Of a DNA stretch of 45,574 nucleotides, positions 19,986 through 33,427 are shown one piece after another. The translations under genes and the position numbers were made by a program. The stretch's first letter is position 1. Every line of letters starts with the position of its first letter. The stretch spans positions 1 to 45,574 of the forward strand of contig JAHISJ010000016.1 of assembly GCA_018818205.1 (NCBI GenBank). Reading direction: 5' to 3'. Source of the DNA: Patescibacteria group bacterium (GTDB lineage: Bacteria; Patescibacteriota; JABMPQ01; JAHIRA01). Under the pieces are notes generated by a model. That model ran no database searches and was not told where the DNA came from. It was given only the letters and a program-made list of their open reading frames with translations.

Positions 19986-20802
19986 TTACAGTGGACTTTT
20001 AATTTTTTTTAAACTTGGATTTGTAACTCTTGTATATCGCTCTGTCGTTTTAATATTAGATATGTCCAAGTAAAACTTGAACATATCTAATATCAACACC
20101 ATTTTCTAGGAGGTGAGTGGCAAAGCTATGACGCAGCGAATGAAACGGCGCGTCTTTTTTGATACCTGATTTTTTGAGAGCGTTTTTGAAGATTTTTTGA
20201 ATCGTTCTGGTGTGTAATTTTCCACCTCTTTCACTTTCAAAAAGAACATCATTTTTATCTTTACATGCCATGCATTGTTTAAGACGAGAGAGTATTTTTT
20301 CTGAAATAATGGAGATTCTGTCTTTATTACCTTTTGCTTCATTTATGCGTATTACTTGTTCGTCTAAATCAATATCTTTGATTTTAATATTTTTAACTTC
20401 GCTAACTCTAAGGCCCGCACTATAGGCTAGAGCAAGAATAAGTGTATGTTTATGGTTATTGCTTGAATCAATAATCTTTCTTATTTCTTTTTTTGAAAAA
20501 ACCACGGGAAGCTTCTTGGATTTTTTAGCATGTTGAATGGTGATTCTTTCTTTTACCTTTAGCACCTCGTGAAAAAAGAATTTTATGGCGTTAAGGTTTT
20601 GACTTATTGTTTGAGAAGAAAGTCCTTTTCTCTGTATTGTTTCCAAGTATGCTCTTACCGCTTCAATTTTATGTATACTTGGATTTCTGTTAACAAACTC
20701 AAGGTATTGTTTAATGCATCGCAAATAATTTTTTCTAGTTGATGGACTATAGTTTCTAATTCTAAGCTCGTTTTCTGTTTTAATAAGGTATTGTTGGATC
20801 AT
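19986..20802 (-). pseudogene. tyrosine recombinase (XerC/D-like) with a +1 frameshift before the catalytic Tyr
   Basis: The track ORF (20056-20961) stops right after VQVLLGHI. Dropping one base near 20059-20061 restores [14 protein letters not shown] and a normal end at KIKSPL, stopping at 19986-19988. The best start is the ATG at 20802 ([22 protein letters not shown]), giving about 271 residues. Residues 1-85 form the SAM-like core-binding domain, followed by the catalytic domain with Arg (AGLRVSEV), HSLRHSF and LLGH boxes; the Tyr (ERY) lies beyond the frameshift. It lacks the extra IntI-specific segment between the Lys region and the HxxR box, so it is Xer/phage-integrase-like. It faces away from the cassette array, as intI does in integrons. 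The frameshift could be real, a sequencing error, or recoded. Confidence 0.85.
20053..20093. repeat. 18-bp quasi-perfect inverted repeat at the recombinase frameshift
   Basis: ATATTAGATATGTCCAAG and CTTGAACATATCTAATAT are complementary at all but one position (a G-T wobble as RNA), with a 5-nt loop. The base whose removal restores the recombinase frame lies in one arm, and without it the two arms would be mismatched. This suggests the insertion arose by templated correction of a quasi-palindrome. Confidence 0.8.
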
Positions 20803-20825
20803 ATGTTTTTTGGTTACAATAAAAA

Positions 20826-20868
20826 AAGCGGCACTAGTGTCCTTGAAGGACATTTTCTCCGCTTGCCT
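20826..20868 (-). terminator. minus-strand terminator/attenuator upstream of the recombinase
   Basis: Reading the minus strand, AAGCGG and CCGCTT enclose TGTCCTTCAAGGACA and are followed by TTTTTTT. It lies between the hypothetical gene at 20978-21349 and the preferred recombinase start at 20802. It either ends that gene's transcript or acts as an attenuator in the recombinase leader; TTGTAA-N17-TACTAT a little upstream on the same strand could supply the latter. Confidence 0.65.
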
Positions 20869-20977
20869 GTATAGTATCAATACGTCGGGTATATTACAAG
20901 TGTTGGTAGTGTATCGGTAAAGAGTTCGGGTATACGCTAGTTGTGTGAAATTGAAAATCAATGTTCTTTGAGCAATG

Positions 20978-21349: not shown

Positions 21350-21458
21350 ATTTGTTACTATTACTTTGAAGATTTCTACTTATAGTATAGCACAATCACT
21401 AAAAATCTATATCTTTACAGCTTATTTTTATATCTCTCAATGTAAGTTCTGTAACTTC

Positions 21459-21529
21459 ACACAACAAAGAATATCAGAAATTCATTCCGCTGCGCTCCAT
21501 GAACTTCTGATATTCTTGAACGTTATACG
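21459..21529 (+). other. attC-like recombination site 1 (type A)
   Basis: The R''-like CACACAAC box and the R'-like CGTTATAC box frame a near-perfect stem. AAGAATATCAGAA pairs with TTCTGATATTCTT, then an A/C mismatch, then TTCAT pairs with ATGAA, with loop TCCGCTGCGCTCC. Size, box positions and extrahelical mismatch fit integron attC sites. Confidence 0.75.
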
Positions 21530-21545
21530 CCATTTTGGACTTGCC
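21526..21545. repeat. left copy of inverted repeat flanking the MBL cassette gene
   Basis: ATTTTGGACTTGCC here is the exact reverse complement of GGCAAGTCCAAAAT at about 22182-22195. Adding the nearby GTTATAC/GTATAAC extends the match. The two copies bracket the MBL gene. Confidence 0.7.
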
Positions 21546-21589
21546 TAGTGCAAATAACAACGAATTTATAAAAGTTTTTTTCTAAAGTT

Positions 21590-22177
21590 ATGGCGAAAAT
21601 AAAAGTTTTAATCGAAGGATACGCAAAGCCGCTTGATAAAGGATGGAAGGCTAGTTGTACCACTTGTCTGATTACCACTAACGACAAAAAAATCATAACT
21701 GATCCCGGCTGTAATCGTGTAAAATTACTTGAGGCTTTAGCAGCAGAAGATTTAAATATAGGTGATATTGATTATGTTTTTTTGTCGCATCGACATCCAG
21801 ATCATATTTTGCTTGCTGGTCTTTTTGAGAATGCAAAGTACGTCACTTTTGATGGAAATATGATGTACAATAAAGATGTTCTGTTAGAGTTTGATAAACA
21901 TTGTCTTGGTTCTGATATTGAAATTGTTGCTACCCCAGGTCATGTCAATGAACATCTTTCTCTTATCGTTGATACATCTGAAGGTAAAGTTGCAATAGCC
22001 GGTGACGTAATTTGGTGGCTAGACAGCGAGGAACAAAACTTTGATTTGCATCAAAAAGACCATAATCAAGCAGTTGATTTAAATATGGACACTCTAGTAG
22101 AAAGCCGGAAAAAACTTTTAAAAATGGCGGACTATATAATTCCTGGTCATGGAAAAAGATTTAAGGTGGATAAATGA
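21590..22177 (+). CDS. metallo-beta-lactamase-fold hydrolase (cassette gene)
   Basis: A 195-residue cytoplasmic metallohydrolase. The metal-binding HxHxDH motif is SHRHPDH (residues about 65-71), a second ligand comes from ATPGHVNEH, then AIAGDVIWW carries the bridging Asp, and the final His is in IIPGHGK. This is the complete ligand set of the superfamily, so it is probably active. The sequence resembles small MBLAC1-like hydrolases, not antibiotic beta-lactamases, and it has no signal peptide. It is the first forward gene of the cassette array, between attC-like sites 1 and 2, and is bracketed by an inverted repeat. Confidence 0.85.
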   Translation: MAKIKVLIEGYAKPLDKGWKASCTTCLITTNDKKIITDPGCNRVKLLEALAAEDLNIGDIDYVFLSHRHPDHILLAGLFENAKYVTFDGNMMYNKDVLLEFDKHCLGSDIEIVATPGHVNEHLSLIVDTSEGKVAIAGDVIWWLDSEEQNFDLHQKDHNQAVDLNMDTLVESRKKLLKMADYIIPGHGKRFKVDK

Positions 22178-22181
22178 GGAC

Positions 22182-22207
22182 GGCAAGTCCAAAATAGCAA
22201 GTATAAC
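22182..22207. repeat. right copy of inverted repeat flanking the MBL cassette gene
   Basis: GGCAAGTCCAAAAT is followed by AGCAAGTATAAC. It is the reverse complement of the sequence directly after attC-like site 1 and leads straight into the R''-like box of site 2. Confidence 0.7.
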
Positions 22208-22395
22208 AGCTTGTATGCGGTTCAGTAAAAATGACTCTTTTGAATTTTAATGGAATGTCATTTTTACTGCACCCACATTTTGCACCTCTAAATATACTCG
22301 ACTGAAAGTCTTCAAATAATAGGACGAAACTGCTAAAATCAAAGCATGTACCAATAAAACCGGTGCAAAACGTCGCATACAAATAAACGTTATGC
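22201..22395 (+). other. attC-like recombination site 2 (type B, long)
   Basis: GTATAAC (22201-22207) and CGTTATGC frame an outer stem TTGTATGCG/CGCATACAA. Two inner perfect hairpins follow: CAGTAAAAATGAC/GTCATTTTTACTG, and TTTTGCACC/GGTGCAAAA. At about 195 nt it is longer than the type A sites, like the long attC sites of some chromosomal integrons. Confidence 0.7.
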
Positions 22396-22412
22396 GAAAT
22401 CAAATTGCTTAA

Positions 22413-22865
22413 ATGACTATTAGAAAGTTCAAAAAATCAGATACTACTGAATTGTCGAAGTTGATGATCGACACAGTATTAGAATCTAACATCAAGGACT
22501 ATACAAAAGAGGCTGTTAATCATCTGTGCGAAGAATACACATCCGAGAAAATCCTTATAGATTCTAAGAAAATGTCTATCTTTTTAGCAGTCGAAGAATC
22601 CAAATTATTAGGCACTATCGCCCTTGATGATGATTTGATACTTAGAATGTTTGTTCTTCCGAAGTATCAGGGCAAAAAAATTGGTAAAAAGCTTGTTCAC
22701 CATATTGAAGATATTGCTAGAAAAAGGGCTATCGAAAAATTGAAGTTGCGTGCAAGTATAACCGCGTATGGTTTTTATAAGAAACATGGTTACAAAAAGA
22801 TCAAGGAAACCGACATAAAAGGCATTGGTAAAATAATTTGGATGGAAAAAGATTTAAGCATTTGA
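22413..22865 (+). CDS. GNAT-family N-acetyltransferase (cassette gene)
   Basis: A 150-residue acetyl-CoA-dependent acetyltransferase. The N-terminal TIRKFKKSDTTELSKLM, the strand LLGTIALDDDLILRMFVLP, the acetyl-CoA pyrophosphate loop KYQGKKIGKKLV (motif A, Q/RxxGxG/K) and the closing ASITAYGFYKKHGY are all diagnostic. Length is full for a single GNAT domain. The acceptor is unknown. The ATG is about 20 nt after the R'-like box of site 2, the compact spacing of gene cassettes. Confidence 0.88.
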   Translation: MTIRKFKKSDTTELSKLMIDTVLESNIKDYTKEAVNHLCEEYTSEKILIDSKKMSIFLAVEESKLLGTIALDDDLILRMFVLPKYQGKKIGKKLVHHIEDIARKRAIEKLKLRASITAYGFYKKHGYKKIKETDIKGIGKIIWMEKDLSI

Positions 22866-22876
22866 AAAGAGACTTC

Positions 22877-22948
22877 ACATAACAATGAGTAACAGAAATT
22901 TATCTTCGCTTCGCTACGATAAACTTCTGTTACTCTCAAACGTTAGCT
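22877..22948 (+). other. attC-like recombination site 3 (type A)
   Basis: The CACATAAC box and CGTTAGCT box frame GAGTAACAGAA (22887-22897) paired with TTCTGTTACTC (22925-22935), then a mismatch, then TTTATC/GATAAA. The layout is the same as sites 1 and 5. Confidence 0.75.
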
Positions 22949-22980
22949 GAAATTAATTTTGGATACTATATAATCAATAT

Positions 22981-23403
22981 ATGAATAAAAAAACTTGTTC
23001 CTTTTGCGGTTTTGATGACAAAGCAGTCACTGTATATGAAGACGAAGTGTGCTTTGCAATAGTGAGTGAGAATCCCATTAACAAGCATCATGTTTTGGTC
23101 ATCCCTAAAAAGCATTATGAATCTTTTATAGAGCTTCCGGATAAATTAGCCGTGCATATCTTTCTAGTTGCCAAAAAACTTTCCAAGGCGGTAAGAGAAG
23201 CATGCAATCCAGATGCTATAACTCATTTATTTGACGATGATGTCTCAAAAAGTGGTTACAACATGGTTCCACATTACAAATTTCATATTATTCCAAGGTT
23301 TAAGAAAGATATGCACATGATTGACTGGGGGCAACTAAGAACTGATCAAAACTATGATGATTGTTGTAAGTACGCAAAAGGCATTAAGGATAAATTAAGA
23401 TAA
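22981..23403 (+). CDS. HIT-superfamily protein with altered histidine triad (cassette gene)
   Basis: A 140-residue HIT-fold protein. The core HHVLVIPKKHYESFIELP and the C-terminal MVPHYKFHIIPRFKKD match the family, whose members hydrolyse or transfer nucleoside monophosphates through a central His of HxHxH. Here the triad reads H98-Y-K100-F-H102, so the catalytic His is replaced by Lys. An N-terminal CSFC could bind metal with other residues. It may be an inactive binding protein or use a different chemistry. It lies in a single-gene cassette between sites 3 and 4. Confidence 0.85.
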   Translation: MNKKTCSFCGFDDKAVTVYEDEVCFAIVSENPINKHHVLVIPKKHYESFIELPDKLAVHIFLVAKKLSKAVREACNPDAITHLFDDDVSKSGYNMVPHYKFHIIPRFKKDMHMIDWGQLRTDQNYDDCCKYAKGIKDKLR

Positions 23404-23420
23404 TCTATCCAAAATTAACA

Positions 23421-23528
23421 ACACCTAACAGCGTGTATGCGGTTCCGTTCGTCGTCATACCTCCTACTCATATTACCGCTTCGCGATATTATACAGTCAG
23501 CAAACATCGCATACGTAGACGTTATGTG
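23421..23528 (+). other. attC-like recombination site 4 (type B)
   Basis: ACACCTAAC and CGTTATGT boxes frame the stem GTATGCG/CGCATAC, with the conserved type B flanks CAGCGTGTATGCGGTTC and CGCATACGTAGACGTTATG. The loop holds a short CCGCTTCGCG-like hairpin. Confidence 0.7.
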
Positions 23529-23568
23529 ATATAACAAAATTTAATGCAATCATCTATCTATAGAGTTT

Positions 23569-24318
23569 ATGGCCACCATAGAAACCGGTAAACAATTTCA
23601 GAAAATCGTTGAAGAAATAAAAAAGGATCAAAATGTCTTAGCTTTTTGGATTGATGGAGCGAGAGGAAAAGGAATGGAAACAGAAAACTCTGATTATGAC
23701 GCGAGAATGATTGTAAAAGACAATGTTGTTAATCAGTATAAAGAGAAATATGGAAGCAAGAAGAATCCTGAAATTGAAATCAGCATAATGACATTTGATG
23801 AATTAAAAGAGCATGCAAAATACGGCTCGGAAATGTCCTGGGATAGATATAATTTTGCCCACCTTAAGGTGATGTTTGATCGAACCGGTGAAATTCAAGT
23901 AATAATTGATTCTAAGTCTATGTTATCTAAAAAAGACCAAGACTTGATTATTAAAGATGTTTTAGGTGCTTTTATTAATCAAGTTTATCGTTTAGAAAAA
24001 AATGCAAGAGATGGTAATTTGATAGCCGCAAAATTTGATGCGATCGAGGCAATTCCGTTCCTTCTTGAAGCCATATTTGCACTTGAAGGCAATGTGAGAC
24101 CTTATAATAAATATTTGGTGTGGGAATTAGATAACTATCCTCTCGAAAAATTCCCTTGGAAGAGAGGTGAGCTAGTTTCGAATCTAACCTCAGTTATTGA
24201 TGGAGGTCAATTACACAAGTTGCTTGATATTTTGCTTACTATTAGACCGATATTTAAAGACGAAGGATATTCAGAAGAATTTGATGAGTGGAAAGGCTAC
24301 TATAAAGTTGGAGAATAG
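23569..24318 (+). CDS. nucleotidyltransferase-domain protein (cassette gene)
   Basis: A 249-residue protein of the polymerase-beta-like nucleotidyltransferase superfamily. FWIDGARGKGMETENSDYDARMIV (about residues 27-50) holds the G(S/A)xxG loop and the metal-binding DxD pair; a later EIEIS strand may supply the third carboxylate. The C-terminal half is helical, as in aminoglycoside-type and DUF4037-like nucleotidyltransferases. The substrate cannot be told from sequence. Such enzymes are common integron cargo. It lies in a single-gene cassette between sites 4 and 5. Confidence 0.75.
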   Translation: MATIETGKQFQKIVEEIKKDQNVLAFWIDGARGKGMETENSDYDARMIVKDNVVNQYKEKYGSKKNPEIEISIMTFDELKEHAKYGSEMSWDRYNFAHLKVMFDRTGEIQVIIDSKSMLSKKDQDLIIKDVLGAFINQVYRLEKNARDGNLIAAKFDAIEAIPFLLEAIFALEGNVRPYNKYLVWELDNYPLEKFPWKRGELVSNLTSVIDGGQLHKLLDILLTIRPIFKDEGYSEEFDEWKGYYKVGE

Positions 24319-24371
24319 TCGATTCAGTGATCTCAGTATATCGCTCGCGGAGATATTAAATTTTGTTACAT

Positions 24372-24441
24372 CACATAACAAAGGCTATCAGAAATTCACT
24401 TCACTTTGCTCCGTGAACTTCTGATAGACACGAACGCACTA
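24372..24441 (+). other. attC-like recombination site 5 (type A, 3' box decayed)
   Basis: CACATAAC, then CTATCAGAA (24385-24393) pairs with TTCTGATAG (24419-24427) and TTCAC with GTGAA. The 3' R' box reads CGAACGCACT rather than CGTTA, so the crossover base is lost and the site is probably inactive. Confidence 0.65.
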
Positions 24442-24550
24442 GTGTCGCGTTTAGATAATTTTTTTGTCTTTAATACTATCTTAAACATATCTGCTAGGGA
24501 AAAAAGAAAATTTGAGTTAGTATTTGTATAAGCAATTAATAATAAAACAT

Positions 24551-24865
24551 ATGAGAAGCATTTTATTGTCTTTAGCCTTAGGTGCAGCAGCTGGTATAAT
24601 TGATGTTATTCCAATGATAATTCAGAAATTAGACAAATATGCATGCATATCTGCTTTTGTTCAATGGATCATAATTGGATTCATAGTTACACACATAAAA
24701 ATTCCAGGTGTTGAGGGTTGGTCTAAAGGCACAATCATTGCTGTTTTAATGGCACTACCAATAATTATAATTGTAATGAAAACTGACCTAAAATCAGTAC
24801 CTATTATTTTAATAACGTCAGCAATTCTTGGCGGATTAGTGGGATTTTTTAGCGATAAAATTTAG
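24551..24865 (+). CDS. small membrane protein (cassette gene)
   Basis: A 104-residue protein with three to four hydrophobic helices and no recognised family. The track start is a TTG at 24524; the ATG at 24551 (MRSILLSLALGAAAG) gives a cleaner membrane start. Its GIIDVIP motif after the first helix and a later GWSKGTIIAVLMALP parallel GIIDGII and GLTKGIVFALIV in the cassette protein at 27102, so the two may be distant relatives. Function unknown. Confidence 0.6.
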   Translation: MRSILLSLALGAAAGIIDVIPMIIQKLDKYACISAFVQWIIIGFIVTHIKIPGVEGWSKGTIIAVLMALPIIIIVMKTDLKSVPIILITSAILGGLVGFFSDKI

Positions 24866-24885
24866 TGTTTCTTGCAAGGCTAAAA

Positions 24886-24925
24886 TTAAACTTTCTCCAT
24901 GTCTTCCAGCAGGGAGAAAGTTTAA
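24886..24925. other. 13-bp perfect hairpin after the membrane cassette gene
   Basis: TTAAACTTTCTCC and GGAGAAAGTTTAA enclose a 14-nt loop. There is no T-run on the plus strand, so it is a poor terminator; it may be a cassette-end structure or stabilise the mRNA. The rest of 24866-25126 holds only the decayed attC-like site 6. Confidence 0.5.
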
Positions 24926-25012
24926 AATAGTTAAGAATAAGCCAAAAGCTCGAATAGTTTTTCATAATGACAAATGGGTTGAAAGCGGTACACTTATAAT
25001 GGAGTTATTAAG

Positions 25013-25098
25013 GGCTAACCCGTGAGTCACAGTTCAAACTTCGTCTAGCAGTGGCTATCCGAAATTGAAACTTCAGATAATGCGCAAACATTATGTGC
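25013..25098 (+). other. degenerate attC-like site 6
   Basis: GGCTAAC at the left and CATTATGTGC at the right resemble R'' and R' boxes; the right box matches the CGTTATGTGA of site 4 except for G to A. The stem between (GTTCAAACTTCG with CGAAATTGAAAC) is imperfect. Position just before the Nudix gene supports a cassette junction. Confidence 0.4.
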
Positions 25099-25126
25099 AA
25101 TTTATTCGATCAATAAACATTTAATA

Positions 25127-25537
25127 ATGAAAACGAGAGTAATAGTAAGTGCGGTAATTGAAGATGGTCATAAACTTCTCTTTGCCAAGAAAAAAGAAAA
25201 TGTTGGCCCATATCCAAATACTTGGCATCTAATTGGTGGAGGCATTGAGGAGGAAGAATCGTTAGAGGAGAGTATCAAAAGAGAAGTTCGAGAGGAAGCT
25301 AACATTGAAATTGAAATTATCGAAAGTGTAGGCTTTGATGATGATTTTGAACCTGATAAAAAAGGTGAGTTGACTCACTACATTTTTCTTGTTTACAAAG
25401 CTAAGTATATTTCTGGTGAAGCAAAAGCTGATGACGATGTAGTCGAACTGAGGTGGTTTTCAAAGAAGACTCTACCTGTGAAAATGTTTAATAGACCATC
25501 ATTGAAGCTTTTTAAAAGAATGGGTTATATCTCATAG
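25127..25537 (+). CDS. Nudix hydrolase (cassette gene)
   Basis: A 136-residue Nudix-fold pyrophosphohydrolase. The Nudix box GGGIEEEESLEESIKREVREEANIEI fits GX5EX7REUXEEXGU except that the last Gly is Asn; all catalytic Glu residues are present. The VSAVIEDGHKLLFAKKKENVGPYPNTWHLIGG start is typical of MutT-like members acting on nucleoside diphosphate derivatives. It is full length, with no signal peptide. It is a single-gene cassette ended by the good attC-like site 7. Confidence 0.88.
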   Translation: MKTRVIVSAVIEDGHKLLFAKKKENVGPYPNTWHLIGGGIEEEESLEESIKREVREEANIEIEIIESVGFDDDFEPDKKGELTHYIFLVYKAKYISGEAKADDDVVELRWFSKKTLPVKMFNRPSLKLFKRMGYIS

Positions 25538-25548
25538 TCACGAAAACG

Positions 25549-25623
25549 GCATATAACTCTGAGTATGCGACACCCCATTTTGCTATCGCTTCATGGGACG
25601 TCGCATGCTCAGAAACGTTAAGT
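25549..25623 (+). other. attC-like recombination site 7 (type B)
   Basis: CATATAAC and CGTTAAGT boxes frame TCTGAGTATGCGAC (25558-25571) paired with GTCGCATGCTCAGA (25600-25613), with one wobble, then CCCAT/ATGGG. One of the best stems in the array. Confidence 0.75.
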
Positions 25624-25840: not shown

Positions 25841-25868
25841 TTGACTTAATACATAAATACGTTAAACT
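25841..25868 (+). promoter_or_regulatory. promoter inside the array
   Basis: TTGACT (25841-25846), 16-nt spacer, TAAACT (25863-25868), about 27 nt upstream of the leader-peptide ATG. Cassettes rarely carry their own promoters, so this marks an autonomously regulated cassette. Confidence 0.65.
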
Positions 25869-25894
25869 CTAGCTAAGTTTAAAGTTATATTTGT

Positions 25895-25963
25895 ATGAAA
25901 TACAGAAGACAATCTACATCAATGTCTATGCGGATGATAATGCTTTGCCTCGGGCTGAGTTAA
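25895..25963 (+). CDS. 22-aa Met-rich leader peptide
   Basis: ATG to TAA encodes a 22-residue peptide ending SMSMRMIMLCLGLS. Four of seven consecutive codons (25922-25942) are ATG, and they end 5 nt before the antiterminator arm at 25948-25958, which itself lies inside the ORF. This is the arrangement of ribosome-mediated attenuators: a ribosome stalled at the Met codons leaves the arm free, while one reaching the stop covers it. The ribosome site is weak. Met starvation or drug-induced stalling would both fit. Too short for homology evidence. Confidence 0.55.
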   Translation: MKYRRQSTSMSMRMIMLCLGLS

Positions 25964-26022
25964 TCTTTGTGTAGTCAATTAACGCATGGCAACACAAATC
26001 AGCCCGAGGGGCTGATTTTTTT
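25948..26022 (+). promoter_or_regulatory. antiterminator/terminator attenuator
   Basis: CCTCGGGCTGA (25948-25958) can pair with TCAGCCCGAGG (25999-26009). The same middle segment can instead pair as AAATCAGCCC (25996-26005) with GGGCTGATTT (26009-26018), which is followed by a T-run and forms a terminator. The two folds are mutually exclusive. It lies between the leader peptide and the gene at 26059. Confidence 0.7.
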
Positions 26023-26036
26023 GTTATGCGTTAATT
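25977..26036. other. 60-nt palindrome, possible attC-like site 8
   Basis: AATTAACGCAT (25977-25987) and ATGCGTTAATT (26026-26036) are perfectly complementary and enclose the terminator stem. The ends resemble R'' (AATTAAC) and R' (GTTATGC/GTTAATT) boxes, and the next ORF starts 22 nt later. It could be an attC site whose stem doubles as a terminator, or only a terminator. Confidence 0.45.
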
Positions 26037-26058
26037 TATTTCTCATTTTTAGATCAGT

Positions 26059-27054
26059 ATGAAAACAATTGCAAAACAATACGAAGAAATACTTAAGCGC
26101 CCAACACGTGGAATAGTTCACTTCAACGATGTGTTCTCCAAACGTGATGTTGATTTTGACGCAGAATTAACAGCAATTACACGTAATCTCGGTAATTTTT
26201 CAGATGTAACTTTCCCAATCGGTCAAGATCATAAGCTGGCAGATTATGGAGTAAATTTGTTGCATGATCTTATCGCAGAACAAAATAGAATAATAAATAG
26301 TATTCGAGATAGAGTCGGGAAAATGATACTCCAAAATTTTACAGAGAAGGTTGTTCTTTCGGTTGTGAATTGTGCTCCGCGAAATAGTAAGACAACAGCG
26401 AATGGGAGAAATGGTGAAGATTTTCACTTAGCAATTACCGACAATGGACTTGAAATTTACGCCGTTCCTCTTGCGATATTACAAGCGCTTGAAACACGCG
26501 ATAAAATACTTGCTCTGTATCGTATTCCGAATGAGAAATTAAAGGTAACTGACGGTCTTCATGAGCAATTTCGTTCTTCTATCATTGCCACAACGAGGTA
26601 TTTTCCAGAAATCTTGGAACCAATTTTTGAATATCAAGATAGAAATAGCTTGATAAACGCAAAATTATTAGGAAAACATCCTGATGTAATCCCAAAACAA
26701 AAAAAATTGGCAGAATTTGCATTTGCTGATACATTCGGAAATGTTCGTATTTCTGTTAAGGACACAGAAATATTTAAAAGTTATTTTGGAAGTGGTAATA
26801 TTGGAGATGTAGTAAAAATGAGAGTTGGAAAATCAAAATCTGTTGATGCTTATTACACAACCTCTTTAAAAGAAATCCCAGATGGTGAATTGGGTATTTA
26901 TCAAAATGTAGCAGATAATGATAATTCTAAGGCCAGTTATTGGGAAATTGTGAAGAAGTGGTCTGTTGGTACACTTTGGAGAGCGGAACAATCTTTAGAA
27001 GAATTAAACCCGAATTTTAGGAATGAAGAAATTGTGGTTACTGAGAAGCAGTAG
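26059..27054 (+). CDS. possible SAM-hydroxide-adenosyltransferase-like protein
   Basis: A 331-residue soluble protein I cannot place firmly. The stretch VVLSVVNCAPRNSKT...FHLAITDNGLEIYAVPLAILQAL (about residues 97-146) resembles the VVDPGVGT...VGPDNGLL region of the SAM hydroxide adenosyltransferase (DUF62/fluorinase) family. The later FADTFGNVRISV (about 225) resembles the start of that family's C-terminal beta domain. The match is weak and the family's N-terminal TDFG motif is not obvious, so this is tentative. It is preceded by a promoter, a Met-rich leader peptide and an attenuator. If it does consume SAM, control by Met supply would make sense; that is inference. Confidence 0.45.
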   Translation: MKTIAKQYEEILKRPTRGIVHFNDVFSKRDVDFDAELTAITRNLGNFSDVTFPIGQDHKLADYGVNLLHDLIAEQNRIINSIRDRVGKMILQNFTEKVVLSVVNCAPRNSKTTANGRNGEDFHLAITDNGLEIYAVPLAILQALETRDKILALYRIPNEKLKVTDGLHEQFRSSIIATTRYFPEILEPIFEYQDRNSLINAKLLGKHPDVIPKQKKLAEFAFADTFGNVRISVKDTEIFKSYFGSGNIGDVVKMRVGKSKSVDAYYTTSLKEIPDGELGIYQNVADNDNSKASYWEIVKKWSVGTLWRAEQSLEELNPNFRNEEIVVTEKQ

Positions 27055-27101: not shown

Positions 27102-27509
27102 ATGACAAGATACATAATCGTTTGCCTATTCAGTGGGGTTTTGTTCGGTATAATCGATGGCATTATTAACGCAAACCCATTTGCAAAAAAGCTATTTGAA
27201 GTGTATAAGCCGCTAGCAAAAAAATCTGTTAACGTTCCTGTTGGAGTATTTATTGACCTGTTTTATGGTTTCGCAATGGGGGCAATCTTTTTGCTTACCT
27301 ATTCTTCTCTTCCCGGTGAAAGCGGGCTAACAAAAGGCATAGTCTTTGCTTTGATAGTATGGTTTCTAAGAGTTGTGATGAACGTTGCGTCGACATGGAT
27401 GACACTAGATGTTCCGAAGAAAACCTTATTCTATGTTTTAACAACCGGATTAATTGAAATGGTAATAATCGGAATTGTATATGGGATTTTTTTAAAACCA
27501 ATTATGTGA
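27102..27509 (+). CDS. membrane protein (last cassette gene)
   Basis: A 135-residue protein with four hydrophobic helices and short loops; no family recognised. Helix 1 is followed by GIIDGIINANPF and helix 3 by KGIVFALIVWFLR, resembling the cassette protein at 24551. It starts 47 nt after the previous stop with no attC-like site between them, so the two may form one two-gene cassette. A decayed site 9 follows. Confidence 0.65.
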   Translation: MTRYIIVCLFSGVLFGIIDGIINANPFAKKLFEVYKPLAKKSVNVPVGVFIDLFYGFAMGAIFLLTYSSLPGESGLTKGIVFALIVWFLRVVMNVASTWMTLDVPKKTLFYVLTTGLIEMVIIGIVYGIFLKPIM

Positions 27510-27523
27510 ATGAATCGGTGAAT

Positions 27524-27580
27524 ACATCATACAATAAAGTCTATCAGAAATTCATTCCACTTGGTTATCTCAAACATTAA
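27524..27580 (+). other. truncated attC-like site 9 (type A), right end of the array
   Basis: ACATCATACAATAAAGTCTATCAGAAATTCATTCC matches the 5' half of sites 1 and 5 closely. The complementary 3' arm is missing and a CAAACATTA remnant replaces CGTTA. It marks the probable right boundary of the cassette region. Confidence 0.6.
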
Positions 27581-27650: not shown

Positions 27651-29072
27651 ATGAATAAAAACAAAAAGAAAGCGCTGTCCATATTCTCATTAATGATCAT
27701 GAACATTGCGCTTATTGCTTCTCTGAGGGGATTGCCCACAATGGCTGAAGAGGGTCTTGCAATAGTCTTCTTCCTTATATTTGCAGCTATTGTTTTTCTA
27801 ATTCCCGTTTCTTTGGTTTCAGCCGAGTTAGCCACAGGCTGGCCCAAAGAAGGCGGTATTTACGCGTGGGTAAAAGAAGCTCTGGGTGAACGCTGGGGTT
27901 TTACGGTCATATGGACAGAATGGCTGCAAAATATGGTATTTTATCCCACGGCTCTTGCAGCGACAGCCGGAATAGTAGCCTATGGATTCAGTCCAGCCTT
28001 GGCAGAAAATAAATTGTATACGCTACTGGTTGTTGTTGCGGTTTATTGGGGTGCTACCTTTATTAATTTGCGCGGACTAAAATTATCAACGATTTTTACC
28101 AATGTTGGTATCATTGCTGGTTTGGCGGTACCTGGTTCTATTCTCATTATTGCGGGTATGTATTGGGTCTTTTCCGGCCAGCCCTTAGCCATTCCTCCTA
28201 CTTTCAGTAATTTCATTCCCGATCTTTCCAATGTCAAGACACTCGTTTTTTTGACCGGGGTATTTTTGTTTTTTTCCGGGATGGAGGTATCGGCCGTACA
28301 TGCACAGGAGGTCAAAAATCCTAAAAAGGATTATCCAAAGGCAATTTTCATGTCTGCCATAATAATCGTTTCGTTATTTATTCTTGGTTCTCTGACCATC
28401 GCCTTTATTATTCCGCAAAAGGAAATCAGCCTGACTGCTGGCATCATGGAAGCGTTCGATAAAATATTTAGTACTTTAGGGATCCACTGGTTTGTCCCTG
28501 TGCTGGGTGTACTAGTTGCCATTGGGTTGGTCGCTTCAATCCTGGCTTGGATAGCTGGCCCTTCGACAGGTATATTAGTTGCAGCCAAGAATGGCAATCT
28601 CCCGCCCTTTTTCCGCAAAACCAATAAAAATAACGTGCAGATCAATATCCTTTTGATTCAGGGAGCAGTTGTTACCCTGATCTCCCTGGTTATTCTGCTT
28701 ATGCCTACTGTTTCTTCCTCATTCTGGGTCCTAACTGTTCTTGCTGCCCAGCTGTATTTGTTGGTGTATGTCATGATGTTCATTTCCGCCATTGTTTTGA
28801 AATATAAAAAACCGAAAGTAGACAGACCGTATGCGGTACCAGGTGGCAAGCTTGGCATGTGGATCACCGCTGGCATTGGCACAGTGGCAGCAATTTTCGC
28901 CTTAGCTTTAGGGTTTTTCCCACCAGGTCAGCTTAAAACAGGAGACATCTTCCTTTTTGAAGGCTTTCTTATATTCGGACTAGTCATTGTAATCGGTCTG
29001 CCCCAGCTGATTTACACCTTTAGGAAAGAATCTTGGATAAAAAAAGAAAAAACAATAGAAATCAATAAATAA
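27651..29072 (+). CDS. GadC-like amino acid permease, paralogue 1
   Basis: A 473-residue inner-membrane transporter of the APC superfamily with about 12 helices. The ASLRGLPTMAEEGLA segment in helix 1 (unwound substrate-binding region), SAELATGWPKEGGIYAWVKEALGERWGF and GMEVSAVHAQEVKNPKKDYPKA match the glutamate:GABA antiporter (GadC) group. It probably exchanges acidic amino acids, GABA or related compounds; the substrate is inferred. It heads a four-gene operon with two more permeases and an amidotransferase fusion (8-nt gap to the next gene). Confidence 0.88.
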   Translation: MNKNKKKALSIFSLMIMNIALIASLRGLPTMAEEGLAIVFFLIFAAIVFLIPVSLVSAELATGWPKEGGIYAWVKEALGERWGFTVIWTEWLQNMVFYPTALAATAGIVAYGFSPALAENKLYTLLVVVAVYWGATFINLRGLKLSTIFTNVGIIAGLAVPGSILIIAGMYWVFSGQPLAIPPTFSNFIPDLSNVKTLVFLTGVFLFFSGMEVSAVHAQEVKNPKKDYPKAIFMSAIIIVSLFILGSLTIAFIIPQKEISLTAGIMEAFDKIFSTLGIHWFVPVLGVLVAIGLVASILAWIAGPSTGILVAAKNGNLPPFFRKTNKNNVQINILLIQGAVVTLISLVILLMPTVSSSFWVLTVLAAQLYLLVYVMMFISAIVLKYKKPKVDRPYAVPGGKLGMWITAGIGTVAAIFALALGFFPPGQLKTGDIFLFEGFLIFGLVIVIGLPQLIYTFRKESWIKKEKTIEINK

Positions 29073-29080
29073 TAGAATAT

Positions 29081-30496
29081 ATGTCCAAACCTACAAAAAA
29101 AATGCTCACAGTTTTCTCCTTGGTCATGGTCAACATTTCCCTGATCGCGGCTCTGAGAGGATTACCAACTATGGCCGAATATGGCTTTAGTATTATTTTC
29201 TTTCTGATTCTTGCAGTAGTCATATTTTTAATCCCGGTTGCTCTGATTTCCGCAGAGCTTGCCACAGGGTGGCCGGAAAGCGGTGCAATTTATGTATGGG
29301 TAAAAGAAGCGCTTGGTGAGCGCTGGGGCTTTGTCGCTATTTGGACGCAATGGATACAGAATGTTGTTTTTTACCCTACCGCCCTTGCAGCCATCGCCGC
29401 CACAGCTGCATTTTTATATAAACCAGAATTGGCAACTAATCCATTATTTACCATAGTCATTATTTTTGTAGTGTATTGGGGAGCCACTTTTATAAATTTC
29501 CGTGGATTAAAAATTTCCACCATTTTTACTAATGTTGGCACTGTCCTCGGTGTTCTTGTGCCGGGTGTATTATTGATGGTTTGTGCTGCTATCTGGTTAG
29601 CTACCGGCCATTCCTCCGCGATCGAATTTAGTTGGGCTAGCTTTGTGCCAAATATGAGCAATCTCTCAAATATAGTGTTTTTAACGGGCGTGTTCCTATT
29701 TTTTGCTGGCATGGAAGTATCTGCTGTTCATGTCAAAGAAGTAGGGAACCCCAAAAAAGATTATCCAAAAGCCATCTTTATTTCATCAGTTATTATTGTT
29801 GCTATTTTCGCCCTAGGTTCTCTTGCTATCGCTATTATTACTCCCGCAAATGAAATCAGCCTAACAGCCGGTATTATGCAAACGTTCATGTCTGTTTTTA
29901 AAAGTTTGAATGTGTTGTGGTTAGTGCCGGTAATCGCCATAGTCGCCATACCAGGGATGATCGCTCAAATATTAAACTGGATTGCCGGTCCATCAAAGGC
30001 CCTTCTTGTTACCGCGAAAGATGGTTGCTTGCCGCCGTTTTTTCAGCATATAAATAAGCACGGTATGCAAACGCATATTTTTATTACTCAGGGAGTAGTT
30101 GTCTCAATTATCTCTCTTGTTTTTGTAATACTGCCCTCCGTTTCTAGCTCGTTCTGGATATTAACCGCGCTTGCCGCTCAAATGTATTTGATCGTGTATC
30201 TATTTATGTTTGTCTCAGCCATTGTTTTAAAATATAAAAGAGCGGATGTGAAAAGAGCATATACGGTTCCCGGAGGAAAAATCGGTATGTGGATTGTTGG
30301 CGGAGTTGGTATTGCGGCTGCTCTGTTTGCCTTTTTCCTTGGCTATGTCCCCCCGGCTGAACTGGAAACGGGTAGCATTTTCTTTTATGTCGGCTTCCTT
30401 GTAGTGAGTCTCTTGATTCTTGTCGGCGCTCCGCTTCTTATTTATGCTTTGAGAAAACCTAGTTGGGCAAAAAAAGTTGAATTAAAAGAAAAATAG
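29081..30496 (+). CDS. GadC-like amino acid permease, paralogue 2
   Basis: A 471-residue APC-superfamily transporter, clearly paralogous to its upstream neighbour along its whole length: ALRGLPTMAEYG, ELATGWPESGAIYVWVKEALGERWGF, GMEVSAVHVKEVGNPKKDYPKA and the C-terminal YTVPGGKIGMW are shared. About 12 helices. The helix-1 motif differs (AEYG against AEEG), a position near the substrate site, so specificity may differ. It lies 8 nt after the first permease and 25 nt before the third. Confidence 0.88.
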   Translation: MSKPTKKMLTVFSLVMVNISLIAALRGLPTMAEYGFSIIFFLILAVVIFLIPVALISAELATGWPESGAIYVWVKEALGERWGFVAIWTQWIQNVVFYPTALAAIAATAAFLYKPELATNPLFTIVIIFVVYWGATFINFRGLKISTIFTNVGTVLGVLVPGVLLMVCAAIWLATGHSSAIEFSWASFVPNMSNLSNIVFLTGVFLFFAGMEVSAVHVKEVGNPKKDYPKAIFISSVIIVAIFALGSLAIAIITPANEISLTAGIMQTFMSVFKSLNVLWLVPVIAIVAIPGMIAQILNWIAGPSKALLVTAKDGCLPPFFQHINKHGMQTHIFITQGVVVSIISLVFVILPSVSSSFWILTALAAQMYLIVYLFMFVSAIVLKYKRADVKRAYTVPGGKIGMWIVGGVGIAAALFAFFLGYVPPAELETGSIFFYVGFLVVSLLILVGAPLLIYALRKPSWAKKVELKEK

Positions 30497-30521
30497 TAAA
30501 TAGATACAACAGAATATTTCT

Positions 30522-31997
30522 ATGAAAAACAAAAAAAAAGTAGTAAAAACACTAACATTGTCGGTTTTTGGTTTGGCTATGATGAATGTGGCTGCGATTA
30601 TGAGCTTGAGGGGCCTGCCCATGATGGCAGAAGAAGGTCTATCCCTTATCTTTTTTGTGGCTTTTGCAGCTATCTTCTTTTTATTGCCAGTTTCTTTAAT
30701 ATCAGCCGAGCTTGCTTCGGCTTTTTCTACTGGAAAAGGTGGAGTTTACCTTTGGGCAAAAGAAGCATTTGGTAATCGTTTTGGTTTTATTACCATATAT
30801 CTTCAATGGATCCAGAATGTTATTTGGTTTCCTACGGTCCTAGCGTTTTGTGCTGGAAGTCTGTCCTATGTGATGGTTTTATTCTGGGATCCAAATCAAG
30901 TGAGCATGCTTTCTCAAAATAATTATTTCATCGTCATAGTAATCCTAGTGGTATATTGGCTGGCTACCTTCAATTCATTTAGAGGAATAAAAGCGGCCAG
31001 TAAATTGAGCACGATTGGTGTAATAGCAGGTACTTTGGTTCCGGGTATTTTTATTATCATATTAGGTGCAATATGGGCTCTTACTGGCCATGATCTGGGA
31101 TTTATGCATGTTCCCGGTGGAGGACAAGCTCGTCTTCTTCCTGATTTTTCAAACTTTTCTAGCTTGGCATTTTTAGCTGGAATAGTCCTTTTATATGCTG
31201 GCATGGAAGTTGGTGCGGTACATGTTAAAGATTTAAAAAACCCTCAAAAAGAATTTCCAAAAGCAATTTTTGTATCAATGGCAATTATCATTGTGATCTT
31301 TTCTCTGGGGTCTCTGGCCGTTGCTTCAGTGTTATCTCCAAATGAGATCAATCTTAATTCCGGGCTCATGCAGGCCTTTCATGACATGATAGTAAAATTA
31401 GTCCCAGCAGGATTTGTAAACCCAATTATTGCAGTATTGGGCTTTCTTACGGCCTTAGGTGTTGTGGGTGGAGTTGCTGCCTGGATAGCAGGTCCTTCAA
31501 AGGGCTTGCTCGCAACAGCCAGCGAAGGAGACTTGCCTCCATTTTTGGCTAAGATGAACAAAAATAATATCCAAACAAATATCCTATGGATTCAGGGTGG
31601 GATAGTGACTTTACTGGCTTTATTGTTTATCCTTATTCCAAATGCAAGCGTTGTGTTTACACTTCTTACCGCCATTACTGCCATTCTTTATTTAACCATG
31701 TATTTGTTGCTTTATATCACTGCAATCAAGCTTCGTTATAGCCACCCGGATTTAAAAAGACCTTACAGAGTGCCAGGCGGAAATTTTGGAATGATAACAA
31801 TCTGTTCTACCGGTATACTTGCAGTTTTGTTTGCCCTGGTGCTTGGATTTTTCCCTCCTTCACAATTGCATTTAAAAAGTCCGGCCACGTATGTAGTATA
31901 CGTGGTAATTGGGGTTATCGTTTTCTTAGCTATTCCATTTATAATCAGTGCGCTTAAAAAGCCAAGCTGGGTTAAAAAACCAGATTCTAATAAATAA
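30522..31997 (+). CDS. GadC-like amino acid permease, paralogue 3
   Basis: A 491-residue APC-superfamily transporter, more divergent than the first two but with the same landmarks: MSLRGLPMMAEEGL, SAELASAFSTGKGGVYLWAKEAFGNRFGF, GMEVGAVHVKDLKNPQKEFPKA and YRVPGGNFGM. About 12 helices, with longer loops after helices 3 and 5. Tandem triplication followed by divergence suggests transport of a set of related amino acids or of substrate/product pairs. Its stop is 5 nt before the next gene. Confidence 0.86.
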   Translation: MKNKKKVVKTLTLSVFGLAMMNVAAIMSLRGLPMMAEEGLSLIFFVAFAAIFFLLPVSLISAELASAFSTGKGGVYLWAKEAFGNRFGFITIYLQWIQNVIWFPTVLAFCAGSLSYVMVLFWDPNQVSMLSQNNYFIVIVILVVYWLATFNSFRGIKAASKLSTIGVIAGTLVPGIFIIILGAIWALTGHDLGFMHVPGGGQARLLPDFSNFSSLAFLAGIVLLYAGMEVGAVHVKDLKNPQKEFPKAIFVSMAIIIVIFSLGSLAVASVLSPNEINLNSGLMQAFHDMIVKLVPAGFVNPIIAVLGFLTALGVVGGVAAWIAGPSKGLLATASEGDLPPFLAKMNKNNIQTNILWIQGGIVTLLALLFILIPNASVVFTLLTAITAILYLTMYLLLYITAIKLRYSHPDLKRPYRVPGGNFGMITICSTGILAVLFALVLGFFPPSQLHLKSPATYVVYVVIGVIVFLAIPFIISALKKPSWVKKPDSNK

Positions 31998-32002
31998 AAA
32001 AA

Positions 32003-33427
32003 ATGTCAATGATCGATATTACTCCGCCGAGTCTTAATAATAATCCTCAGCAGGATATTATTGTGACAAATCTACAACCTTTACTCACTTTTTTTAATAG
32101 TAAAGGCGGTGCTGGAAAGCTCAACTATGATATTCATCTTGATACTTCTCCAAGATTCAACACTAAAAATACAATCAAGTATAATCAAGTTAAACAAACA
32201 AACGATTTAGTCAGCAGTAAATTAATTGAAGAAAAAAATAAACTTAAAGATAACAAACACTATTTCTGGCGTGTTCGGGCAACAGATGAAAAAAGTAATA
32301 AAAGTGAGTGGGCGGAATCCAGGTTTTTTGTGGATACAAAATCAGATGACAAATTCATGGACATGACCCGTGTCCCAATCAAGAAAGTAGAGGCCTCTTC
32401 TGGCTTTAATGTAAAAAATATTATTGATTATGACGATCCGGGCGAAGGCAGCTTCTGGCAATCCACTCCGCCTGGCGATCTTGTTCATTGGGTCAAATTT
32501 GACCTCGGTAGAGCTAAAACTATCTCTCGTGTCTGGATGCTCTCCAACTTATCTGGTCCGGACAATTGGCTTAAGGACTTTGTCTGGCAAAAATCTTCTG
32601 ACGGTAAGCATTGGTCTGTCGTGGCTGGAACGGACGTGAAAAAGAACGATACGTACCGCAATATTTTGGACTTTAAACCAACCAAGGCGCGCTATTTCCG
32701 TTTAATGATCAAGGACTGGCATGGCTATGCTCCACAATTGAACGAGGTCATTCTCTATTCGCCGGGTGTGCCTAAAGCGCCAAAACCTCCAACGGGCAAG
32801 TATGTGTTGGTTGTCGGTAATCAGCACAACGGCTTTACTTTTTCTGAGCTTGCTCGCCATATAGAGCATACTGGATTGAGACTTAAAACCATGACCGTTC
32901 CTCGCTATGAAGTCTCTCTTGATATGCTAAATAAACTACAAAATAAACCCGTTGCCATTGTGCTTTCCGGAAACAACGCTGACTACCCAAACCAACCCAT
33001 GTTCGAATATAATGGCGAATTCGAAATCATCCGCGAATCAAATATCCCTATTTTGGGAATCTGTTGCGGCCATCAGATGCTCTGTGCCGCGTATGGTCAG
33101 ACCTATATTGGCTCAATGGGCTGGTCAGATATTTCCTCTTTGCGCCTTGAAGACCGTCTGCCTCTTTCTCACATAAAAATCAGAAAAAAGAATGACCCTA
33201 TATTCAAAGGTATTCCGGACAACTTCACCGCTCCGGAAGTGCATGGCTGGGCCGTATTGCACGTGCCAGACATGTACGAGGTTATTGCCGACTCCGGCTA
33301 TGTCCAGGCTATTAGGCACAAATCAAAATTGATCTACGGCAAACAGTTTCATGCGGAGATCAAAGCTTCTTACAATCAAGGGGTACCCTTTATTAAAAAC
33401 TTTCTCAAGCTAGCACTGGCCTTTTAG
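32003..33427 (+). CDS. Fn3-like / discoidin (F5/8C) / class I glutamine amidotransferase fusion
   Basis: A 474-residue three-domain protein. Residues about 20-112 are an Fn3-like beta sandwich (HYFWRVRATDEKSNKSEWAESRFFVD). Residues about 125-253 are a discoidin/F5-8C carbohydrate-binding domain (WVKFDLGRAKTISRVWM, KARYFRLMIKDW, NEVILYSPG). Residues about 265-474 are a class I glutamine amidotransferase close to the GuaA type, with nucleophile Cys354 in LGICCGHQ and the His-Glu pair in GKQFHAE. There is no signal peptide, which is odd for Fn3 and discoidin domains. It lies 5 nt after the third permease and so is co-transcribed. The amidotransferase may hydrolyse glutamine or gamma-glutamyl compounds brought in by the permeases; that is inference. 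Confidence 0.82.
   Translation: MSMIDITPPSLNNNPQQDIIVTNLQPLLTFFNSKGGAGKLNYDIHLDTSPRFNTKNTIKYNQVKQTNDLVSSKLIEEKNKLKDNKHYFWRVRATDEKSNKSEWAESRFFVDTKSDDKFMDMTRVPIKKVEASSGFNVKNIIDYDDPGEGSFWQSTPPGDLVHWVKFDLGRAKTISRVWMLSNLSGPDNWLKDFVWQKSSDGKHWSVVAGTDVKKNDTYRNILDFKPTKARYFRLMIKDWHGYAPQLNEVILYSPGVPKAPKPPTGKYVLVVGNQHNGFTFSELARHIEHTGLRLKTMTVPRYEVSLDMLNKLQNKPVAIVLSGNNADYPNQPMFEYNGEFEIIRESNIPILGICCGHQMLCAAYGQTYIGSMGWSDISSLRLEDRLPLSHIKIRKKNDPIFKGIPDNFTAPEVHGWAVLHVPDMYEVIADSGYVQAIRHKSKLIYGKQFHAEIKASYNQGVPFIKNFLKLALAF

Follow-up and report, generated by a model that had tools for sequence, protein, structure and literature searches.

A methionine-rich leader upstream of a predicted SAM-hydrolase-fold gene suggests a methionine-sensing transcription attenuator in Patescibacteria

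Classical amino-acid attenuators, such as the trp, his, leu, thr, phe and ilv leaders, combine a short ORF carrying a run of control codons, competing antiterminator and terminator structures, and a downstream gene of the matching pathway. A 2005 survey lists his, thr and phe as attenuator-controlled and methionine as S-box controlled (PMC1262725), and a 2010 survey states that leader peptides were then known only in Proteobacteria and Actinobacteria and adds a case in Firmicutes (PMC2965389). Methionine-pathway genes are commonly under S-box or T-box control in other bacteria (PMC6230763, PMC1262725); S-box (SAM-I), SAM-II and T-box regulators sense SAM or uncharged tRNA through RNA structure, and a Xanthomonas met 5'UTR has been reported without a leader peptide (PMC6230763). 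Translated leaders that stall and cause antitermination or unmasking are also known in drug-inducible systems such as msrD, bmrCD and erm (PMC10314930 for MsrD). Here we examine a leader in a member of the Patescibacteria that shares the layout of the classical attenuators but whose control codon is methionine, and whose targets are a gene for a protein of predicted SAM-hydrolase fold and, in other genomes, homocysteine S-methyltransferase and metA genes. Neither a methionine leader-peptide attenuator nor any such attenuator in Patescibacteria was found in Rfam or in a search of 5.4 million open-access papers, which did not extend to subscription journals and preprints.

The window, that is, the whole stretch of DNA analysed (45,574 nucleotides), is one contig of a 1.41-Mb, 97% complete genome whose relatives, like the homologs described below, are Patescibacteria/CPR. 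The sequence-only reading proposed a ribosome-type attenuator with a Met-rich leader peptide inside a cassette array, and its anatomy proved correct to the base. The features of the locus are as follows.

25549..25622 (+), attC-like site ending the preceding (NUDIX) cassette (coordinates approximate)
25841..25868 (+), sigma-70-like promoter TTGACT-16 nt-TAAACT
25895..25963 (+), 22-codon leader ORF encoding MKYRRQSTSMSMRMIMLCLGLS, stop TAA at 25961-25963, control codons ATG at 25922, 25928, 25934 and 25940 (codons 10, 12, 14 and 16)
25923..25977 (+), possible 1:2 (pause/protector) hairpin enclosing the control codons and the arm
25948..25958 (+), region 2, antiterminator 5' arm CCTCGGGCTGA, with an extension TTTGTGT at 25966-25972
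25992..26009 (+), region 3, ACACAAATCAGCCCGAGG, pairing with region 2 (antiterminator) or, in part, with region 4 (terminator)
25996..26025 (+), intrinsic terminator AAATCAGCCC-GAG-GGGCTGATTT plus T-run
25977..26036 (no strand assigned), 60-nt palindrome extending the terminator stem, with outer stem AATTAACGCAT/ATGCGTTAATT
26059..27054 (+), controlled gene, 331-aa protein of the predicted SAM hydroxide adenosyltransferase (DUF62) fold with a divergent active site
27102..27509 (+), 135-aa protein (DUF6789-like), possible second gene of the transcript, 47 bp after the first gene
27524..27558 (+), attC left half-site, 28/33 identical to the ones at 21454 and 24368, right half missing

The arm at 25948-25958 is the exact complement of TCAGCCCGAGG at 25999-26009, and it competes with the terminator (25996-26005 with 26009-26018, followed by TTTTTTT), which ranked first among 11 terminator-like sites in the 12 kb scanned. 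The antiterminator extends further than the sequence-only reading had reported, since TTTGTGT (25966-25972) pairs with ACACAAA (25992-25998), giving 18 bp with one 7-nt bulge (-30.4 kcal/mol for 25948-26009). The arm:terminator duplex was better than 200 of 200 within-locus shuffles of the arm (z -3.7). The predicted fold also includes the hairpin around the control codons and region 2 (-17.4 kcal/mol), as in the 1:2 pairing of classical attenuators. By contrast, the promoter (9/12) is not above chance on its own (33 such sites found versus 40.9 expected; 37% of shuffles as good) and gains support only because TTGAC(A/T/G)-16/17-TAnnnT recurs at a similar place in many relatives. No clear Shine-Dalgarno sequence precedes the leader ATG, so that efficient translation of the leader is assumed.

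The cassette-array context also holds. Upstream of the leader lie a tyrosine recombinase resembling XerA/integron integrase (20056-20961, minus strand; TIGR02249 175 bits, below its cut-off of 265) and, at 21443-25622, at least five attC-like sites and cassettes (beta-lactamase-fold, GNAT, HIT, nucleotidyltransferase, NUDIX), forming an integron-like array downstream of a tRNA-Ser. The leader and its gene lie between a complete attC-like site and a truncated one, so the unit looks like the last, degenerate cassette of this array. Elsewhere in the window, three GadC-like amino-acid antiporter genes in a row are followed by a glutamine-amidotransferase-like gene (27651-33427), and a 711-aa protein kinase-like protein shows similarity to MAD6/PASTA-type kinases (263-2398).

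The product of the controlled gene has no Pfam, NCBIfam, PADLOC or PHROG family above threshold, and no relative was found in viral contigs. Against PF01887/PF20257 it reaches only 15.3 bits for SAM_HAT_C (cut-off 25.5) and gives no SAM_HAT_N match. Its relatives, however, give weak to clear SAM_HAT_C matches (24 of 43 at E <= 0.01; 5.9e-8 in one locus, L011), and a profile of 43 relatives finds PDB 2zbu at 6e-9. An AlphaFold2 model built with nine sequences (pLDDT 82.8, pTM 0.81) was compared with the PDB using Foldseek, and all 26 hits at E <= 0.001 are DUF62-superfamily entries, including T. maritima 2zbv (the best, E 4.7e-11, TM 0.52/0.64), the MJ1651 SAM hydrolase (22uy), the P. horikoshii SAM hydroxide adenosyltransferase (PH0463, 2wr8), the SalL chlorinase and fluorinase. 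The protein shares with this group the predicted fold and a DxFGN C-terminal motif, but identity is only about 11-15%. Asn104, Arg108 and Arg172 are invariant in 43 homologs where hydrolases have, by alignment, Asp, Arg and His. The profile alignment to 2zbu places Arg172 at the His of the FHGRD motif, the other positions being placed by eye. The protein thus appears to lack two of the three residues usually called catalytic in SAM hydrolases and may not be a hydrolase. As characterised enzymes of the superfamily appear to split SAM and release L-methionine, the predicted output would be methionine recovered from SAM, although the reaction is only inferred.

We collected 70 homologous loci across Patescibacteria by searching genomes and contigs. 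About 34 of them, in many families, have a Met-rich leader (typically MMMxMMM) with an arm and a terminator just upstream of the gene, for example (L and G denote our locus and genome labels) MIKRINNSMMDMMMQNLCELS in Magasanikbacteria (L006/L045), MNLKTLTTNSFQTSSMMMAMMRSMRRLKFLS in Peribacteria (L007/L042), MMMSMMM (L008/L048), MMSMMMRFARG (L010) and MMMAMMMPPLRG (L032). Thirty-two satisfied an automatic rule of at least three Met in eight codons, L050 and L046 were added by eye, and a few terminators (L036, L038, L050, L082) were also judged by eye. Applied to both strands of the window and of eight 6-11-kb loci (256 kb), the same rule gave five hits, all at the expected leaders; in the shorter flanks (468 kb), a handful of the 27 hits lay elsewhere, of which three turned out to be true leaders misplaced by contig ends or second leaders of a tandem. 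Two genomes have two tandem leaders before one DUF62-fold gene (G604 and G569; L026 805-1040 and L018 1130-1490), and in a third (G696; L027, reverse strand, oriented 213-2625) the leader is followed by the DUF62-fold gene, a 146-aa ORF and, as read by eye, a methionyl-tRNA-synthetase-like ORF. The other homologs lack the leader, including the closest one (66% identical, G628/L047). Absence from homologs was an observation that the sequence-only reading would have counted against itself; it is partly borne out, the leader being patchily kept rather than universal. A DNA search of 96 relatives for the leader by sequence found only a weak chance-like match at the gene start in one genome (G018). 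Leader presence does not track that of SAM synthetase (metK): the first 21 genomes suggested that it did (12/15 with the leader versus 0/6 without), but the trend vanished with 68 genomes (22/33 versus 20/35; Fisher p 0.20 on an interim tally).

Comparison across these leaders supports the competing structures. When each region 2 was scored against its own and every other locus's terminator region, own pairs averaged -24.1 kcal/mol and permuted pairs -18.0 (sd 0.6), with 0 of 5000 permutations as low. Because G+C content could drive this difference, arms were also shuffled within their locus, giving a Stouffer z of -14.2 over 36 leaders. This fixed-window test fails for L021, L026 and L041, where Met codons run into the arm and our region definition cut it off, and is weak for L050. 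RNAalifold found no consensus structure on the MAFFT alignment, and the terminator and antiterminator were therefore tested as named structures on a 25-sequence alignment. The antiterminator has 12 cells with changes on both sides versus 6.3 in shuffled controls (2/500), and the proportion of paired cells drops from 74.5% to 29-50% when slid by 1-3 columns; the terminator behaves similarly. Related sequences inflate such controls, so that the permutation tests are supporting rather than absolute. Covariation across homologous leaders, the test put forward by the sequence-only reading, was thus passed.

An independent link to methionine comes from a covariance model trained only on leaders preceding DUF62-fold genes and run on 341 genomes. 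Many strong hits lie in genomes where no DUF62-fold homolog had been found. Of 31 downstream proteins scanned, some of them second genes, 13 match homocysteine S-methyltransferase (best 2e-40), 4 homoserine O-succinyltransferase (best 4e-121), 3 SAM_HAT_N and 2 Cys/Met PLP enzymes (4.6e-138) (families PF02574, PF04204, PF01887 and PF01053, respectively), and their leaders are Met-rich too. This ties the element to methionine without using the fold of the window gene. Among these loci, Met-rich leaders lie directly upstream of metA, metA plus a Cys/Met PLP enzyme, Hcy methyltransferase plus metA, or a methyltransferase plus serine hydroxymethyltransferase. A number of hits nevertheless precede ORFs with no recognised methionine role. 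In several Peribacteria the leader persists, often beside recG, but the DUF62-fold gene is replaced by small ORFs of unknown function, either new regulon members or relics, and in other loci the leader lies about 350 nt (about 300-450 nt) upstream of hisS with no clear gene in between. In the window's own genome only the window copy, which belonged to the training set, stands out (3e-8; next 0.13).

Taken together, these comparative data lead us to favour, with high confidence, a ribosome-mediated transcription attenuator with methionine specificity, in line with the sequence-only reading. A ribosome would follow RNA polymerase on the 22-codon leader. If Met-tRNA is plentiful, it would run to the stop codon at 25961 and cover region 2 (25948-25972), so that regions 3 and 4 form the terminator and transcription ends near 26022. 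If charged tRNA-Met is short, the ribosome would stall at the ATG cluster (25922-25942), leaving region 2 free to pair with region 3 and allowing transcription of the gene at 26059. Stalling, the tRNA-Met signal and read-through are inferred, without expression data. Some features sit less easily with this model. Met shortage should also slow initiation, which would work against the switch, and the arm starts only 5 nt after the last ATG, so that a ribosome stalled at codon 16 would mask part of it and only stalls at the earlier Met codons would leave it fully free.

As for ALTERNATIVES, we consider the other explanations very unlikely. The hairpin might be only the terminator of the upstream cassette array, or an attC recombination hairpin, with the short ORF and arm being coincidental: the terminator does lie in a 60-nt palindrome between attC-like sites, attC sites also fold as imperfect palindromes, and it contains GTTATGC, which resembles R' boxes of the array. 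However, the left half of the palindrome does not match, by eye, the attC arms of this array, region 2 complementarity is specific, and the conservation of the leader-arm-terminator layout before homologs elsewhere refutes this as the sole explanation. A leader sensing ribosome-targeting drugs or a general translation slow-down would have the same anatomy, and known drug-induced leaders use short ORFs and terminators (PMC10314930). Yet Met clusters are the conserved peptide feature, the downstream genes found belong to methionine metabolism and not to resistance, and the controlled protein matches no defence family, so that antibiotic sensing is disfavoured and the antibiotic-resistance analogue invoked by the sequence-only reading is not supported. 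Finally, SAM, methionine or tRNA-Met might be read directly by a riboswitch or T-box, the ORF being incidental, given how commonly S-box or T-box elements control methionine genes in other bacteria. Against this, the window has no Rfam match above threshold except a tRNA, and seven leader loci show none to a SAM or T-box family at E <= 0.1 (only a sub-threshold Leu_leader hit at 28 bits versus 50). The conserved columns are the ATG codons and the two arms, and no aptamer-like core is seen.

More speculatively, and in our view about as likely as not, a methionine-specific ribosome-mediated attenuator might be a widespread regulatory device of Patescibacteria, doing there the work of S-box/T-box control and governing a new branch of the SAM-hydrolase superfamily that recovers methionine from SAM, the whole switch plus gene travelling in this genome as an integron cassette. 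Attenuators as such are known; the methionine specificity, the phylum and the regulon appear to be new. The element also raises a clean physical question, namely how a Met attenuator works when the same amino acid is needed to start translation. Gene regulation in Patescibacteria is almost unknown, and a 2024 review describes how these bacteria regulate their cell cycle as virtually unknown and mentions no attenuation (PMC11665869). In this context, the leader provides a concrete candidate for a methionine-responsive switch present in dozens of genomes, with an amino-acid specificity not found in Rfam or in the attenuator surveys consulted, and a functional lead for a protein family without annotation.
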